This document shows positions 56,974 through 60,880 of a stretch of DNA of 64,000 nt, piece by piece. Below the pieces are notes generated by a model, which was not told the DNA's origin, did not search any database, and worked only from the letters and a program-made list of their open reading frames with translations. Source of the stretch: Desulfobacteraceae bacterium. Its GTDB lineage: Bacteria; Desulfobacterota; Desulfobacteria; Desulfobacterales; Desulfosarcinaceae. Made by a program: the position numbers and the translations under genes. The DNA is taken from assembly GCA_013003715.1 (NCBI GenBank), contig JABDIN010000093.1, forward strand, positions 1-64,000, given 5' to 3'. The first letter of the stretch is position 1, and every line of letters begins with the position of its first letter.

Positions 56974-57059
56974 ACGGGTGATACAACTGCTGTAACCGAT
57001 CTGCTTGATTACGAGTGATAGGCTGCTGCCAATTAGCCGGGTATTTGCAAGGCTGCACC

Positions 57060-57326
57060 GTGTTTGATTATAAAAAAAACCGCGCCTGGGCAGAAAATCT
57101 GTCAATCGTCATGCAACTTGGCCTGACCATGGTCGGTTGCATTTTATTTTGTTTTGTAATCGGATTTTTTCTAGACAAATGGGTCGGCACCCGTGGATTG
57201 TTCATTACCATTTTCATATTGCTGGGCATCGCCGGCGGCGCCAATGTCTCCTACCGCCAGATAATGGAAATTACCGGCGGCGATGAAAAGCGAAAGACGG
57301 AAAATGGTGGAAACGGAATCGATTAG
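57060..57326 (+). CDS. atpZ: AtpZ/AtpI-family small ATP synthase accessory protein
   Basis: 88 residues with two membrane helices: LSIVMQLGLTMVGCILFCFVIG (split 13-34) and GLFITIFILLGIAGGA, joined by the conserved FLDKWVGTRG. Such AtpZ/AtpI-like proteins precede many F0 operons and with AtpI form a Mg2+/Ca2+ transporter-like complex or help c-ring assembly. The start is GTG at 57060 with AAGG upstream; GTG at 57015 would add 15 residues. It overlaps the next gene. Confidence 0.75.
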   Translation: MFDYKKNRAWAENLSIVMQLGLTMVGCILFCFVIGFFLDKWVGTRGLFITIFILLGIAGGANVSYRQIMEITGGDEKRKTENGGNGID

Positions 57327-57714
57327 GGGCGTTGAGAAAAAATATTGCTCCCGGGCGATGATGTTGGCCATCACCCTTGCAATTATTTTAATCGCAATCG
57401 GCTATAAAGCCATGGCTAAAGGCCTGATACTGGGATCCTTGTTCAGCGTGGTCAATTTCATCATCATGGGTCGTACCTTGCCCATGCGCCTGAATCGAAC
57501 CAAGCGCAAAACCTTTTTCATCGGCCTCGGCAGTATTTGGTTTCGATATATCGTGCTGGCAATTCCATTGGTACTGGCGATCAAGATGGAACAATTTGAT
57601 GTATTGGCGGCATGCGCGGGTATCTTTATGATACAGGTGATGATTTTATCGGACCAGTTATTCACCATCATAACCAAAAAATTTTCATCGGGAACGGAAG
57701 ATGGCGAATCATAG
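57304..57714 (+). CDS. atpI: ATP synthase subunit I
   Basis: 136 residues with four hydrophobic helices and short charged loops, the profile of AtpI (UncI). AtpI is a chaperone for assembly of the c ring and is required for some sodium-type enzymes. The sequence is not strongly conserved, so the call rests on topology and position directly before atpB. ATG at 57304 is preferred; ATG at 57283 would add seven residues and is equally open. The start overlaps the end of atpZ by 23 bp. Confidence 0.75.
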   Translation: MVETESIRGVEKKYCSRAMMLAITLAIILIAIGYKAMAKGLILGSLFSVVNFIIMGRTLPMRLNRTKRKTFFIGLGSIWFRYIVLAIPLVLAIKMEQFDVLAACAGIFMIQVMILSDQLFTIITKKFSSGTEDGES

Positions 57715-57756: not shown

Positions 57757-58431
57757 ATGGGTGAACTGGGAAAAATACACCAGCTGATTATCAATCTCTT
57801 CGGTTATAATATTACGATCAACCTGGAAGTGGTGTTGATGGCATGGATCGTCTTTGCGGTCATTCTTGTTCTCGGCTACCTGGCCGCCCGAAATGTCAGC
57901 ATGCAACCGGATTCTCCCCAGGTGGTCGGTGAACTTTTCGTGGATGCGCTTTACGGATTGACCGAGGATGCGCTTGACAAAAAACTGGCCCTGAAATACG
58001 GCCCGCTGATTTGCGCATTATTCCTCTTTCTCGTTATATCCAACTGGCTCGGCATCATTCCTCACCTGGAGGAGCCCACTAAAGATCTGAATACCCCGCT
58101 GAGTCTGGGCGTGATGGGATTTTTCATAGCCCACGTGGCCGGTATCCGGAAAAAGGGTTTTAAAAACTATGCCCGCGAGTATTTCCAGCCGATATTTTTC
58201 ATGATGCCGTTGAACATCATCAGTGAACTGGCCAAAATAGTCTCCATTTCGTTTCGTCTTTTCGGTAATATCATGGGTGGTTCAATCATTATCCTGGTGG
58301 TTTCATATCTGACCTATAGTTTGATTCTCCCCCCATTCCTATATGCCTTTTTCGGACTTTTTGTGGGAACGATTCAAGCATTTGTTTTCACGATGCTAAC
58401 CGTAGTGTACATATCTGTACAGGTGAAATAA
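57757..58431 (+). CDS. atpB: ATP synthase F0 subunit a
   Basis: 224 residues with five to six membrane helices. The essential arginine that faces the c ring is R167 in SISFRLFGNIMGG; the preceding helix contains the conserved SELAK. The second conserved segment near the C terminus is GTIQAFVFTMLTVVYI with the polar glutamine. N-terminal loops LFGYNITINLEV and NWLGIIPHLEEPTKDLNTPL are typical. Subunit a provides the two half-channels for the coupling ion. The stop is 4 bp before the large c gene. Confidence 0.95.
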   Translation: MGELGKIHQLIINLFGYNITINLEVVLMAWIVFAVILVLGYLAARNVSMQPDSPQVVGELFVDALYGLTEDALDKKLALKYGPLICALFLFLVISNWLGIIPHLEEPTKDLNTPLSLGVMGFFIAHVAGIRKKGFKNYAREYFQPIFFMMPLNIISELAKIVSISFRLFGNIMGGSIIILVVSYLTYSLILPPFLYAFFGLFVGTIQAFVFTMLTVVYISVQVK

Positions 58432-58435
58432 TCAT

Positions 58436-59410
58436 ATGGCCTTTGAAAATCTTTCCTGGATACAGTTAGCCGCTTTTTCAGGGGGTGGTCTCGCCATGGG
58501 CCTCGGCGCTGTCGGTGCTGCCATCGGTGAAGGGTACACCGCCGCACAAGCCAATATGGCGGTATCAAGAAACCCCGAGATATCCGGCGACATTTTTAAA
58601 AACATGCTGGTGGGACAAGCAGTGGCTGAGTCCGCATCGATTTTTGCATTGGTGATCGCCATCCTGCTTCTGTTTTTGGATGTACCAAACCCCAACCTCA
58701 TCGATGCCGCCGCCCTGTTCGGTGCCGGTATATGTATGGGACTTGGCGCCGTGGGCTCCGGTATGGGTTCCGGATATCCCGGCGGACAGGCCTGTTTTGG
58801 TATTTCCCGACAGCCCGGAGCCGCATCAAAGCTCACCACGAATATGCTGATCGGATCAGCCGTCTGCCAGACACCGGCCATATTCTCCATGGTGGTGGCA
58901 TTGATGCTCATGTTCATGGATTTCGGTAACGCGCCATTGCAACCGACATGGGCGGCGTTGATCGGCGCCGGATTGAGCACCGGTCTGGCGGCCATCGGCT
59001 CCGGTTATGGTGGCGGGTTGGCCGCAGGGGCAAGCTGTGAGGGGATCGCCCGGCAACCCGAAACCGTCGGCAACGTCACCACCACAATGCTGGTGGGACA
59101 GGCGGTGGCCCAGACACCGTCCATCTTCGGGCTGCTCGTCAGCTTTATTTTAATGTTTAAAGTATTTCCGGAATCCTCGTCCCTTGCTGCGGCCATGGCC
59201 CTTTTGGGGGCCGGTGTCAGCACAGGTTTCGGGGGTATCGGTCCCGGTATCGGCAATGGCATGGCCGCAGAGGGCGCTGTCCGGTGGGTGGCCAGAAACG
59301 TACAAAGTGCCGGTGAACTCATGCGTATCATGCTGGTGGGGCAGGCGGTGTCGCAATCCACGGCAATATATGCAATGGTTGTCAGTCTTGTCTTAATCTT
59401 CGTAGTTTAA
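58436..59410 (+). CDS. ATP synthase c subunit with four fused hairpins (eight membrane helices)
   Basis: 324 residues instead of about 80. Four c-type hairpins follow one another at a period of about 81 residues (roughly 8-82, 88-162, 170-242, 249-324), each with a glycine-rich first helix, a polar loop (SRNPEISGD, SRQPGAASK, ARQPETVGN, ARNVQSAGE) and a hydrophobic second helix starting NMLVGQAV or similar. The ion-binding glutamate is kept only in hairpin 1 (E65, codon GAG at 58628-58630). At the matching place hairpins 2-4 have Q145 (CAG), Q226 (CAG) and Q307 (CAA). The helix-1 acidic residue is also only in hairpin 1: E32, then S112, G193, N274. So one chain should give four hairpins but one ion site. 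Fused c subunits with lost carboxylates are known in V-type and archaeal enzymes (c with two hairpins) and in Acetobacterium c1; one site in four hairpins is extreme. AGGTGA lies 9 bp before the ATG. Confidence 0.93.
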   Translation: MAFENLSWIQLAAFSGGGLAMGLGAVGAAIGEGYTAAQANMAVSRNPEISGDIFKNMLVGQAVAESASIFALVIAILLLFLDVPNPNLIDAAALFGAGICMGLGAVGSGMGSGYPGGQACFGISRQPGAASKLTTNMLIGSAVCQTPAIFSMVVALMLMFMDFGNAPLQPTWAALIGAGLSTGLAAIGSGYGGGLAAGASCEGIARQPETVGNVTTTMLVGQAVAQTPSIFGLLVSFILMFKVFPESSSLAAAMALLGAGVSTGFGGIGPGIGNGMAAEGAVRWVARNVQSAGELMRIMLVGQAVSQSTAIYAMVVSLVLIFVV

Positions 59411-59451: not shown

Positions 59452-59700
59452 ATGGCCATTGAAGGAGCGGATTTAATAAAAGCAGCGGCATTTTTAGGGG
59501 CAGGACTGTCCATGGGTTTAGGGGCCATTGGCCCTGGCGTGGGTGAAGGCATGGTCGCGGCCAAGGCATGTGAAGCCATTGGCAAAAATCCCAAGGAAGC
59601 GGGACTCCTCACACGTACGATGCTGGTGGGACAGGCCGTTTCCGAGTCAACGGGCATCTACTCATTGGTCATCGCATTGTTGCTCCTGTTTGTGGTTTAA
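59452..59700 (+). CDS. atpE: ATP synthase c subunit, single hairpin, two-carboxylate sodium-type
   Basis: 82 residues in one hairpin. Helix 1 has the G-x-G-x-G pattern with E32 (GVGEG); helix 2 contains V63, E65, S66, T67 and Y70 (AVSESTGIY). In Ilyobacter the sodium ligands are Q32, V63, E65, S66 and T67-bound water with Y70 fixing E65; glutamate in place of Q32 is the two-carboxylate variant described in Fusobacterium. Residue numbers coincide exactly. The protein therefore is predicted to bind sodium, though this needs testing. ATG at 59452 has AGGAGG five bases upstream, a stronger site than that of the large c gene. Confidence 0.95.
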   Translation: MAIEGADLIKAAAFLGAGLSMGLGAIGPGVGEGMVAAKACEAIGKNPKEAGLLTRTMLVGQAVSESTGIYSLVIALLLLFVV

Positions 59701-59849: not shown

Positions 59850-60305
59850 ATGGAAATTGTCAGCACGACCGCGCTGATCAGCATCAACGAGACCGCGTTC
59901 GTTATCCTCATATCTTTTCTGATATTTATGGTTCTTCTCAACCGTATTATGATTCGGCCGCTACGCCAGGTTTCCGAGGAACGCACTCTCTATCTAAAGC
60001 AAATCAAAATCGAAATCGCTGATGCGGAACAGAAGATCATGCAATTCTCCAAGGACCTCGAAACGAAAAAAGAGCGGGTTCGAAAAGAGGCTTTCGATAT
60101 CGTCCGGACAATTGAAGAAGATGCCGGGAAAAATACGGCTGAAATCATAACTGAAGCACAAAAAAAAGCGGCTGAAATAAGGGGTGTCACCGAAAAAAAT
60201 GTGGCCGGTCAGATGCAGGAAGCCCGTACATATCTTGAAAATGAAGCCAAAGGGCTGACGATAATGATTATGGAAAAGATTTTGGGTCGGAGATTGACGT
60301 CATGA
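59850..60305 (+). CDS. atpF': ATP synthase subunit b'
   Basis: 151 residues. One N-terminal membrane helix (about 14-34) is followed by a long charged coiled coil (about 38-150) with the usual heptad pattern. It is the shorter of two stator genes in tandem; paired b and b' are typical of Desulfobacterota, cyanobacteria and alphaproteobacteria. GGAG lies about 11 bp before the ATG. The stop overlaps the next start (ATGA). The stator connects subunit a to F1, which is not encoded here. Confidence 0.88.
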   Translation: MEIVSTTALISINETAFVILISFLIFMVLLNRIMIRPLRQVSEERTLYLKQIKIEIADAEQKIMQFSKDLETKKERVRKEAFDIVRTIEEDAGKNTAEIITEAQKKAAEIRGVTEKNVAGQMQEARTYLENEAKGLTIMIMEKILGRRLTS

Positions 60306-60880
60306 AAACAAATGGAGTCAACATTAACCGTCGGCAACTGGCCGCCGGTGTCGTTTTCGGGCTGATTTTATCCCTACCGGCATTTGCGGCCGATGGTGCC
60401 TCTGACTGGAGAGCCACATACGATATCGTTTTTCGCTGGTTGAATTTCCTGGTGCTCGTATCCGTCATCGTCATCTTTGCCAAAGCACCCATCAAAAAAT
60501 TCCTTTCCATGCGGAAAATCGAAATCAGTGAACAGATCAATTCCCTTGAAGAAGAAAAGAAGGGATTGTTGGATAAGATCGATGAGACAGTGAAAATGGG
60601 CGAAGTGCAAAATGATCGCCTTATTCGCATGAAAGAAAGAATCATTGCTGATGGCGAACGGCGTAAAATCACGGCCATCGAGTCGGCCCGAAAACAAGGT
60701 GAGTTAATGCTGGAAGAGGCCAATCGCCGGATTACCCATCGGATCGCTGAGGCTAAACATCAAATCAAGGCCGAACTCGTTGATATCGCAGTGAAAATGG
60801 CCAACGACCGCCTGACGACCCAAATCAACGAGAAGGACAATCAGAGGCTGGTCGATGATTTTTTAACCAGCGTCGGATGA
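60302..60880 (+). CDS. atpF: ATP synthase subunit b
   Basis: 192 residues. An N-terminal hydrophobic segment that looks like a signal peptide (about 11-30, ending AFA) is followed by the membrane helix (about 44-61) and a long coiled coil (about 70-185). A signal-like N terminus on subunit b is often seen in this phylum. It overlaps b' by 4 bp. It is the last gene; the usual atpH, atpA, atpG, atpD and atpC do not follow. Confidence 0.88.
   Translation: MKTNGVNINRRQLAAGVVFGLILSLPAFAADGASDWRATYDIVFRWLNFLVLVSVIVIFAKAPIKKFLSMRKIEISEQINSLEEEKKGLLDKIDETVKMGEVQNDRLIRMKERIIADGERRKITAIESARKQGELMLEEANRRITHRIAEAKHQIKAELVDIAVKMANDRLTTQINEKDNQRLVDDFLTSVG

Follow-up and report, generated by a model that had tools for sequence, protein, structure and literature searches.

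A conserved four-hairpin c subunit with a single rotor carboxylate in a probable Na+-type F0 operon of a Desulfobacteraceae bacterium

A rotor subunit in which four c-type hairpins are fused, and only the first keeps the ion-binding carboxylate, is encoded in an F-type F0 operon of Desulfobacteraceae bacterium (GCA_013003715.1), within the 64,000-nucleotide stretch of contig JABDIN010000093.1 that was analysed here (the window). We judge this subunit, c4, to be a conserved, extended form of hybrid rotor subunit and not an artefact. In the explanation that we regard as the probable one, c4 would join single-hairpin c subunits in the hybrid ring of an accessory Na+-type F0, the ion/ATP ratio would be lowered, and F1 would be used in turn with an H+-type F0. 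In rotary ATPases, ring size and the count of live sites determine the ion/ATP ratio, whose evolution has to our knowledge been studied on few rings.

The preliminary description of this DNA had claimed one frame of four c-type hairpins with E65, Q145, Q226 and Q307, and with E32 kept in hairpin 1 only. Translation (324 residues), Pfam and a hairpin alignment bear this out: coordinates, codons and residues are all correct, the four residues at position 65 stand in register, and position 32 reads E, S, G and N from hairpin 1 to hairpin 4. A search against c-subunit families, which that description had proposed, matched four stretches of c4 to ATP-synt_C (PF00137, E 2.9e-58), and the AlphaFold2 model of c4 consists of four helical hairpins (mean pLDDT 94.7, pTM 0.90). 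The gene and its diagnostic codons, placed by alignment, are as follows.

58436-59410, + strand: c4, four-hairpin c with the pattern E-Q-Q-Q at position 65; weak Shine-Dalgarno, 4 bp after the stop codon of subunit a
58529-58531, + strand: GAA codon of E32, the other carboxylate of the ion site in hairpin 1
58628-58630, + strand: E65 codon GAG, sole rotor carboxylate of c4
58868-58870, + strand: Q145 codon CAG, carboxylate position of hairpin 2
59111-59113, + strand: Q226 codon CAG, carboxylate position of hairpin 3
59354-59356, + strand: Q307 codon CAA, carboxylate position of hairpin 4, where S308, T309 and Y312 are kept

A carboxylate in the second helix is thus present in hairpin 1 of c4 only; the single c at 59452-59700 carries one in its only hairpin. 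The hairpins of c4 differ in a meaningful pattern, as residues 66, 67 and 70 read SAF, TPF, TPF and STY from hairpin 1 to hairpin 4. Hairpin 1 has E32 and E65 together with its own A67 and F70, and the helper set for its site would come from the preceding hairpin.

The gene stands in a run of F0 genes, as follows.

57015-57326, + strand: AtpI-like small membrane protein (ATPase_gene1, PF09527, E 2.4e-13), first gene of the F0 cluster; a GTG start was used and is uncertain
57283-57714, + strand: ATP synthase I-chain protein (ATP-synt_I, PF03899, E 9.4e-08)
57757-58431, + strand: F0 subunit a, with the stator half-channels (PF00119, E 2.2e-49) and the stator Arg motif FRLFGN kept
59452-59700, + strand: single-hairpin c with a complete two-carboxylate Na+ motif (PF00137, E 6e-19); strong Shine-Dalgarno, AAGGAGG
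59850-60305, + strand: F0 subunit b (PF00430, E 1.2e-11)
60302-60880, + strand: F0 subunit b', the second b (PF00430, E 8e-10)

A PF19745 match of b' lay under the family cut-off and was disregarded. Subunits a, c and b therefore lie together in an F0 operon with an F-type subunit a (PF00119, PF00430), and neighbours of this kind (F-type a, b and b') are not those of a V-type or A-type K subunit. An N-ATPase is ruled out by gene order: the cluster AtpI-I-a-c4-c-b-b' holds no F1 gene, and N-ATPase genes are given, in a passage of PMC11738941, as a single locus in the order beta-epsilon-X-X-a-c-(b delta)-alpha-gamma. The single c begins 41 bp past the c4 stop codon and carries the full Na+-type motif (E32, V63, E65, S66, T67, Y70), and from these residues this second F0 of the genome is probably Na+-type.

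Among 204 loci with a multi-hairpin c, drawn from two collections in which some genes occur twice (165 are distinct by their last 150 residues), 126 have the order AtpI, I, a, fused c, c, b, b', and fused c subunits of other hairpin numbers mostly occupy the same slot. A single c lies in the same stretch as the fused c in 195 of the 204; of the remaining nine, five are cut by the stretch end and the other four are two genes seen twice. Counted over all loci with duplicates, the single c reads EVESTY (positions 32, 63, 65, 66, 67 and 70) in 195 cases and QVESTY in 5, and the seven other rows of that list are six H+-type c subunits and one cut-off first hairpin. The motif FR[LM][FY]GN is present in 161 of the 162 subunit a sequences used for the tree described below, one of which is an H+-type a. 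In 12 of the 204 loci the operon runs on into delta in the same gene run, and in at most 11 into alpha as well, which indicates that the fused c is part of a genuine ATP synthase. The order can change, as at L101:4134-6517, where the c4 gene follows b' and the single c is in its usual place. Two c4 genes (L076:1107-2081 and L078:4985-5959) were found with no other F0 genes nearby; their genomes have the F0 operon elsewhere, at L065 (with its own c4) and at L113, a 4 kb contig with AtpI, I, a, c and b and no c4.

The two c genes differ in their ribosome-binding sites. In the window the Shine-Dalgarno duplex of the single c is calculated at -11.7 kcal/mol, versus -3.8 for c4, and that of the single c is the stronger in 149 of 154 loci and the weaker in 5 (medians -10.3 and -3.8 kcal/mol); this count covers 154 of 160 loci with starts picked by rule, by which individual loci may err, as L218 does. 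This pattern accords with few fused and many single subunits.

Fused c subunits are widespread among relatives, a point that the preliminary description had proposed to check in related Desulfobacterota. Of 97 genomes searched, 63 carry a multi-hairpin c, the genome of the window included and G007 showing the first hairpin only, at a contig end. With an alignment profile at E 1e-30 or better, one was found in 125 of 291 genomes of the class and in 43 of 395 of the phylum, two draws within Desulfobacterota that overlap each other and the 97-genome search. In the named collection, titles among the best 80 of 425 confirmed stretches are mostly Desulfobacterales, Desulfobacteraceae, Desulfosarcina and Deltaproteobacteria. 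By pattern at position 65, Desulfosarcina widdelii PP31 has EQQQ, as in the window, D. alkanivorans PL12 EQQE, D. cetonica JCM 12296 EQEE, Desulfatibacillum alkenivorans DSM 16219 EQQE and Desulfatitalea alkaliphila M08but EQQQQ. The occurrence in many genomes, and in the complete genomes of strains PP31 and PL12, rules out an assembly artefact or chimera. A degenerating gene is likewise ruled out, because each hairpin is under purifying selection: summed pN/pS over 15 pairs is 0.201, 0.135, 0.069 and 0.094 for hairpins 1 to 4, the hairpin 1 value being inflated by an indel in the L060/L061 pair.

The relatives form a graded series of two to six fused hairpins. After 204 loci had been reduced to the 195 with a usable neighbouring subunit a, 35 repeats had been collapsed (leaving 160), and L222 and L230, which are cut by contig ends, had been dropped, 158 complete, non-identical genes remained. 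Their patterns at position 65 are EQQQ (63), EQQE (39), EQEE (11), EQQQQ (11), EQE (10), EQQQQQ (7), EQQQE (6), EQQ (5), EQ (2) and, once each, EQEQ, EE, EQQQQE and EQQS. Hairpin 1 has E65 in all 158, hairpin 2 has Q in 157 and E in one, and a lost carboxylate is nearly always replaced by Gln, the single Ser of the set being that of L250. An apparent seven-hairpin form (L221, open frame of 576 residues) was discarded, as the extra length precedes the likely start and six hairpins are left. The EE gene, at L228:2865-3353, is a two-hairpin c that follows the single c and has a full Na+ site in both hairpins; it is possibly an early or separate fusion. At L232, L233, L234 and L236 the single c has Q32 for E32; at L232 and L233 this exchange recurs in hairpin 1 of the six-hairpin partner, whereas at L234 and L236 hairpin 1 keeps E32.

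On a tree of subunit a (162 rows) the number of hairpins changes at least 22 times and the pattern at least 42 times, counts that tree error may inflate, as many forks are open. A tree of the individual hairpins, built on 74 columns and mostly unresolved, places the first hairpins in one group (support 88).

The residues around position 65 largely follow a rule that known Na+ sites predict. In E. hirae NtpK the Na+ ligands are given as E139 and Q110 with L61, T64 and Y68 (a passage of PMC2359735), and these numbers assign the first two ligands to hairpin 2 and the other three to hairpin 1 of a single chain. In solved Na+ rings, by passages of PMC2359735 and PMC3692424, a hairpin relies on V63, S/T66 and Y70 of the adjacent one to complete its site. 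If sites lie at such interfaces, hairpin k should require Y70 only where E65 is present in hairpin k+1, and the last hairpin should always have it for the subunit that follows in the ring. In the 158 genes, Y70 of hairpin k and E65 of hairpin k+1 occur together 223 times, Y70 only 3 times, E65 only 15 times and neither 403 times; without the assumed contact of the last hairpin with c the count is 65/3/15/403. Every last hairpin has Y70 (158/158), and 140 of the 158 genes, c4 of the window among them, are fully consistent with the rule. The reverse direction (35/191/293/125) was discarded, and within the same hairpin Y70 and E65 show no association in the 158 genes (80/146/158/260). An E, D or Q at position 32 occurs only in hairpins with E65 (232/0/6/406), with six hairpins having E65 and none of these residues at 32. 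The EQEQ gene (L164, identical to L248) follows the rule within one chain, reading SAF-TSY-TPF-STY.

The rule is broken somewhere in 18 of the 158 genes. The largest set is ten EQQE genes with QTPL, and thus L70, in hairpin 3 before the live hairpin 4 (L068, L069, L070, L074, L077, L079, L083, L086, L087 and L186); the others are three EQEE genes with F70 in hairpin 2, and L191, L210, L236, L242 and L250. Fisher values on these counts ignore kinship. A phylogeny-corrected pair test, underpowered with five supported pairs, gave a mean of 2.7 agreeing, 0.0 opposing and 2.3 neutral pairs (p 0.25), and its same-hairpin control moves the same way. The residue counts suggest that the fused c subunits of the relatives largely obey the helper rule, as Na+ sites at hairpin interfaces would predict.

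These patterns bear on the idea that c4 is an assembly scaffold or ring-size template acting with AtpI: the fused hairpins would fix ring size or seed assembly, and the carboxylate loss would be mere relaxation in hairpins that can do without the charge. The operon does start with AtpI and the I chain, and the number of hairpins has changed at least 22 times on the tree. However, the replacing residue is nearly always Gln and not a random residue (the one Ser of L250 apart), the helper residues track the carboxylate and purifying selection acts strongly on the neutral hairpins; we consider a scaffold improbable.

The solved chain closest to c4 is the c1 subunit of A. woodii (PDB 4bem, chain J), both by sequence (E 6e-34) and by Foldseek, where it ranks first (E 9.9e-07, 34% identity). 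The A. woodii rotor (c1 plus c2/c3) resembles that of the window in several respects: hairpin 1 of c1 keeps the Na+ site and hairpin 2 has exchanged Glu for Gln, the operon encodes a fused c together with a single-hairpin c, and the helper pattern agrees, with F70 in the first and Y70 in the last hairpin (positions 65, 66, 67 and 70 read E-T-S-F and Q-T-T-Y). The 4bem entry holds nine single c chains and one c1 chain. A. woodii c1 has two hairpins, one of them neutral, whereas c4 has four with three neutral, and relatives have up to six with five neutral. In the hairpin tree of 74 columns the A. woodii hairpins group together (support 84), and the A. woodii duplication may have been separate from that of the c4 lineage. 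For this rotor a passage of a review gives 10 sites and 3.3 Na+/ATP (PMC7793690), and C. aceticum has the same c1/c2 arrangement, which a passage by its authors links to a reduced Na+/ATP ratio (PMC7911925).

Fused hairpins with often lost ligands are also described, in the passages available on them, for V/A-type enzymes (E. hirae NtpK, eukaryotic V-ATPase c, M. jannaschii K). The Na+ site of NtpK is given there as completed across its two hairpins, the M. jannaschii K subunit as a triple hairpin, and that of M. kandleri as a 13-hairpin subunit with a full site in each hairpin. These fusions belong to V/A-type enzymes; the c4 operon, in contrast, has F-type a, b and b' and a single c. The c11 ring of Fusobacterium nucleatum has, in a passage of PMC3692424, the motif of the single c of the window, of which E32 and E65 also occur in hairpin 1 of c4; that ring is homomeric and built from single-hairpin c, whereas the window encodes both a fused and a single c. 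Sulfate reducers or their kin with an extra F0 or several c genes are on record as well: Desulfococcus oleovorans has a duplicated full F0 locus (a passage of Koumandou and Kossida 2014, PMC4154653) and Desulfatiglandales genomes two to four atpE copies (a passage of PMC13343851); these passages are silent on hairpin number, lost carboxylates and F1 sharing. ProAD, in a passage of PMC11738941, records c/K variants that have at least two hairpins, some with sites and some lacking them.

The preliminary description had known of no described bacterial case of such a subunit. For the principle this does not hold, as c1 with c2 in A. woodii and C. aceticum embodies it with two hairpins. Of an F-type c of three to six hairpins we found no description in the literature searched; an earlier mention is possible in a hybrid-rotor review or in database supplements.

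In the probable explanation set out at the start, many single-hairpin c subunits, each having a full Na+ site, would share the ring with c4, present probably in one copy and at most in a few. Each Na+ site would lie between two hairpins, hairpin k giving E32 and E65 and hairpin k-1 the V63 carbonyl, S/T66, T67 and Y70. Entering the ring as c-[H1 H2 H3 H4]-c, c4 would bind Na+ at hairpin 1 with the aid of the preceding hairpin, its neutral Gln hairpins 2 to 4 would carry nothing, and hairpin 4 would supply the helper residues to the next c. With fewer ions per turn the ion/ATP ratio falls: for an 11-hairpin ring, a size taken from solved Na+ rings, one c4 would leave 8 sites per turn and 2.67 Na+/ATP instead of 3.67, with reversal at about 194 mV versus 141 mV for 11 sites at 50 kJ/mol ATP, and the six-hairpin EQQQQQ form would give 2.0 ions/ATP and 259 mV in a ring of the same assumed size. 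Of the preliminary description's claim of one site per eight helices, the part about c4 stands, but it does not extend to the ring, as a single c gene with a full site adjoins c4. Likewise, a lowered ion/ATP ratio is the natural inference, but c4 alone would not set it: the much stronger ribosome-binding site of the single c leads us to expect a mixed ring, in which the lowering per turn is smaller.

A fused c with a lost carboxylate and a single c do lie in the same operon, as in known hybrid rotors. A ring of c4 only, three copies giving 12 hairpins, three sites and one Na+ per ATP, with the single c serving another assembly state, would satisfy the helper rule equally through its H4-H1 contact, and three sites would match the threefold F1. 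Such a ring is nevertheless hard to reconcile with a single c beside the fused c in 195 of 204 loci, with the stronger Shine-Dalgarno of that single c in 149 of 154, with fused lengths of two to six, each of which would require a ring size that is its multiple, and with the mixed ring solved for A. woodii; we regard it as very unlikely.

The placing of the losses calls for comment under the hybrid-ring explanation. In the engineered c10 ring of Bacillus PS3 one E-to-Q change (E56Q) abolished synthesis and pumping (a passage of PMC8809890, citing Mitome 2004), and three consecutive neutral hairpins therefore need explaining. In our bookkeeping model the run of adjoining neutral hairpins amounts to an arc of 131 degrees free of sites, with a rigid-rotor barrier of about 16 kT; evenly spaced losses would avoid both. 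The model suggests that such an arc would be awkward for a simple gear, and that there may be a second effect, of a rectifier or a parking sector. As the arc (196 degrees in EQQQQQ) is wider than the 120 degrees of an F1 step, ion drive would be missing from one catalytic step in every turn, and synthesis would be kinetically blocked. The neutral block, like a missing tooth and compatibly with a hybrid ring, would then make the enzyme a dedicated ATP-driven Na+ pump, which we think doubtful; equally doubtful is the variant in which the neutral arc sits at subunit a and parks the enzyme free of leak. Both draw on the modelled arc and barrier and on the contiguity of the neutral hairpins in most forms, and the A. 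woodii enzyme, with its single neutral hairpin, is reportedly 'capable of ATP synthesis' (so runs a title by Fritz and Mueller of 2007). Against them, the model presupposes a ring of 11 hairpins containing a single fused subunit, as well as a rigid rotor and a linear F1 energy, and the EQE, EQEE and EQEQ forms exist without a long neutral block.

As to direction of use, the low ratio of the proposed hybrid ring would suit a pump that spends ATP to export Na+ against a high gradient or, alternatively, ATP synthesis confined to times when the Na+ gradient is high. A steep Na+ gradient may in turn feed Na+-driven sulfate uptake, which a passage of PMC11887813 describes in sulfate reducers, and reverse electron flow through Rnf. 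An RnfC homologue in the genome of the window (a clear match on contig C21) makes Na+ bioenergetics plausible. A second RnfC_N match in this genome, at C58:44023-44247, is weak and under the family cut-off.

The F1 that this Na+-type F0 would serve is encoded elsewhere. The assembly of the window (115 contigs, 97% complete) contains a single F1 operon, in which b' and b of its own accompany delta, alpha, gamma, beta and epsilon (analysis contig C93), and a further I, a and c set on analysis contig C115, so that F1 lies apart from both F0 sets in this lineage. The c on C115 reads Q32, M63, E65, S66, L67 and Y70 (QMESLY), and its F0 is predicted to be H+-type because T67 is absent, the kind of rule that a passage on ProAD uses (PMC11738941). 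The genome has one gamma, two subunit a and one delta. Its five PF00006 matches comprise alpha and beta, once each, a FliI-type ATPase and two of Rho type (L036 on C9 and L037 on C82); a second alpha/beta pair was sought among them and not found.

The same imbalance of a and gamma accompanies the fused c across genomes. Among the 63 carriers, a exceeds gamma by one in 49 and by two or three in 11, and the numbers are equal in three (G004, G087, where gamma is in two pieces, and G090); among the 34 non-carriers the difference is 0 in 29, +1 in 3 and -1 in 2. It is +1 in all 14 single-contig carriers and in all five carriers with 2-50 contigs, the count for G249 omitting a third subunit a match, a 27-residue fragment under the cut-off beside its second c4 copy. 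The surplus of one a over gamma in 19 of 19 well-assembled carriers points to two F0 motors and apparently one F1. In several genomes there is a divergent extra gamma together with an a, which we take to be those of N-ATPases. Of 14 genomes, 13 have one full-length delta match and the other, G182, a partial one; an additional weak partial match occurs in G019 and G583.

We also weighed whether the second F0 never meets F1, working alone or lying silent, or has a second F1 that escaped notice. No F1 gene follows in the window, and the genome is an assembly of 115 contigs. Nonetheless, single-contig genomes show the same count of a and gamma, the genome of the window has one alpha and one beta, and in 12 of 204 loci the operon continues with delta. 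In G332 the fused c is followed on its own strand by delta and then, about 3.5 kb past the fused c, by the sole gamma, the other subunit a being elsewhere; the only a of G004 adjoins its fused c, and its gamma is likewise single. An F0 of this kind, alone or with an unseen partner, thus seems to us highly improbable. One F1 common to two F0 is the simplest reading of the counts, and the Na+-type F0 most likely would serve the only F-type F1 of the cell in turn with the separate, predicted H+-type F0.

A bolder and more tentative extension, to which we give a minor share of our belief, is a modular ATP synthase: one F1 would be served by two interchangeable F0, a predicted H+ one with a normal ring and a Na+ one with a missing-tooth sector of two to six hairpins, with repeated evolution of the gear and rectification where the arc exceeds 120 degrees. 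If it is true, the ion/ATP ratio could be set anywhere from 3.67 down to 2.0 (an 11-hairpin ring being assumed). One bacterial group in any case offers a graded natural series of two, three, four, five and six fused hairpins with one to three live sites in the fused part, in which partner c and subunit a are of the same kind throughout and F1 is apparently shared. Fused parts with differing tooth patterns constitute a natural test of gear-ratio evolution in a rotary motor, and the series makes testable both the running of a motor over three to five consecutive neutral hairpins and the sharing of one F1 by two F0 motors. In G077, a genome with one gamma, a second Na+-type F0 has only a single-hairpin c (L103:4771-5034), and it is a candidate for the state without any fused c.
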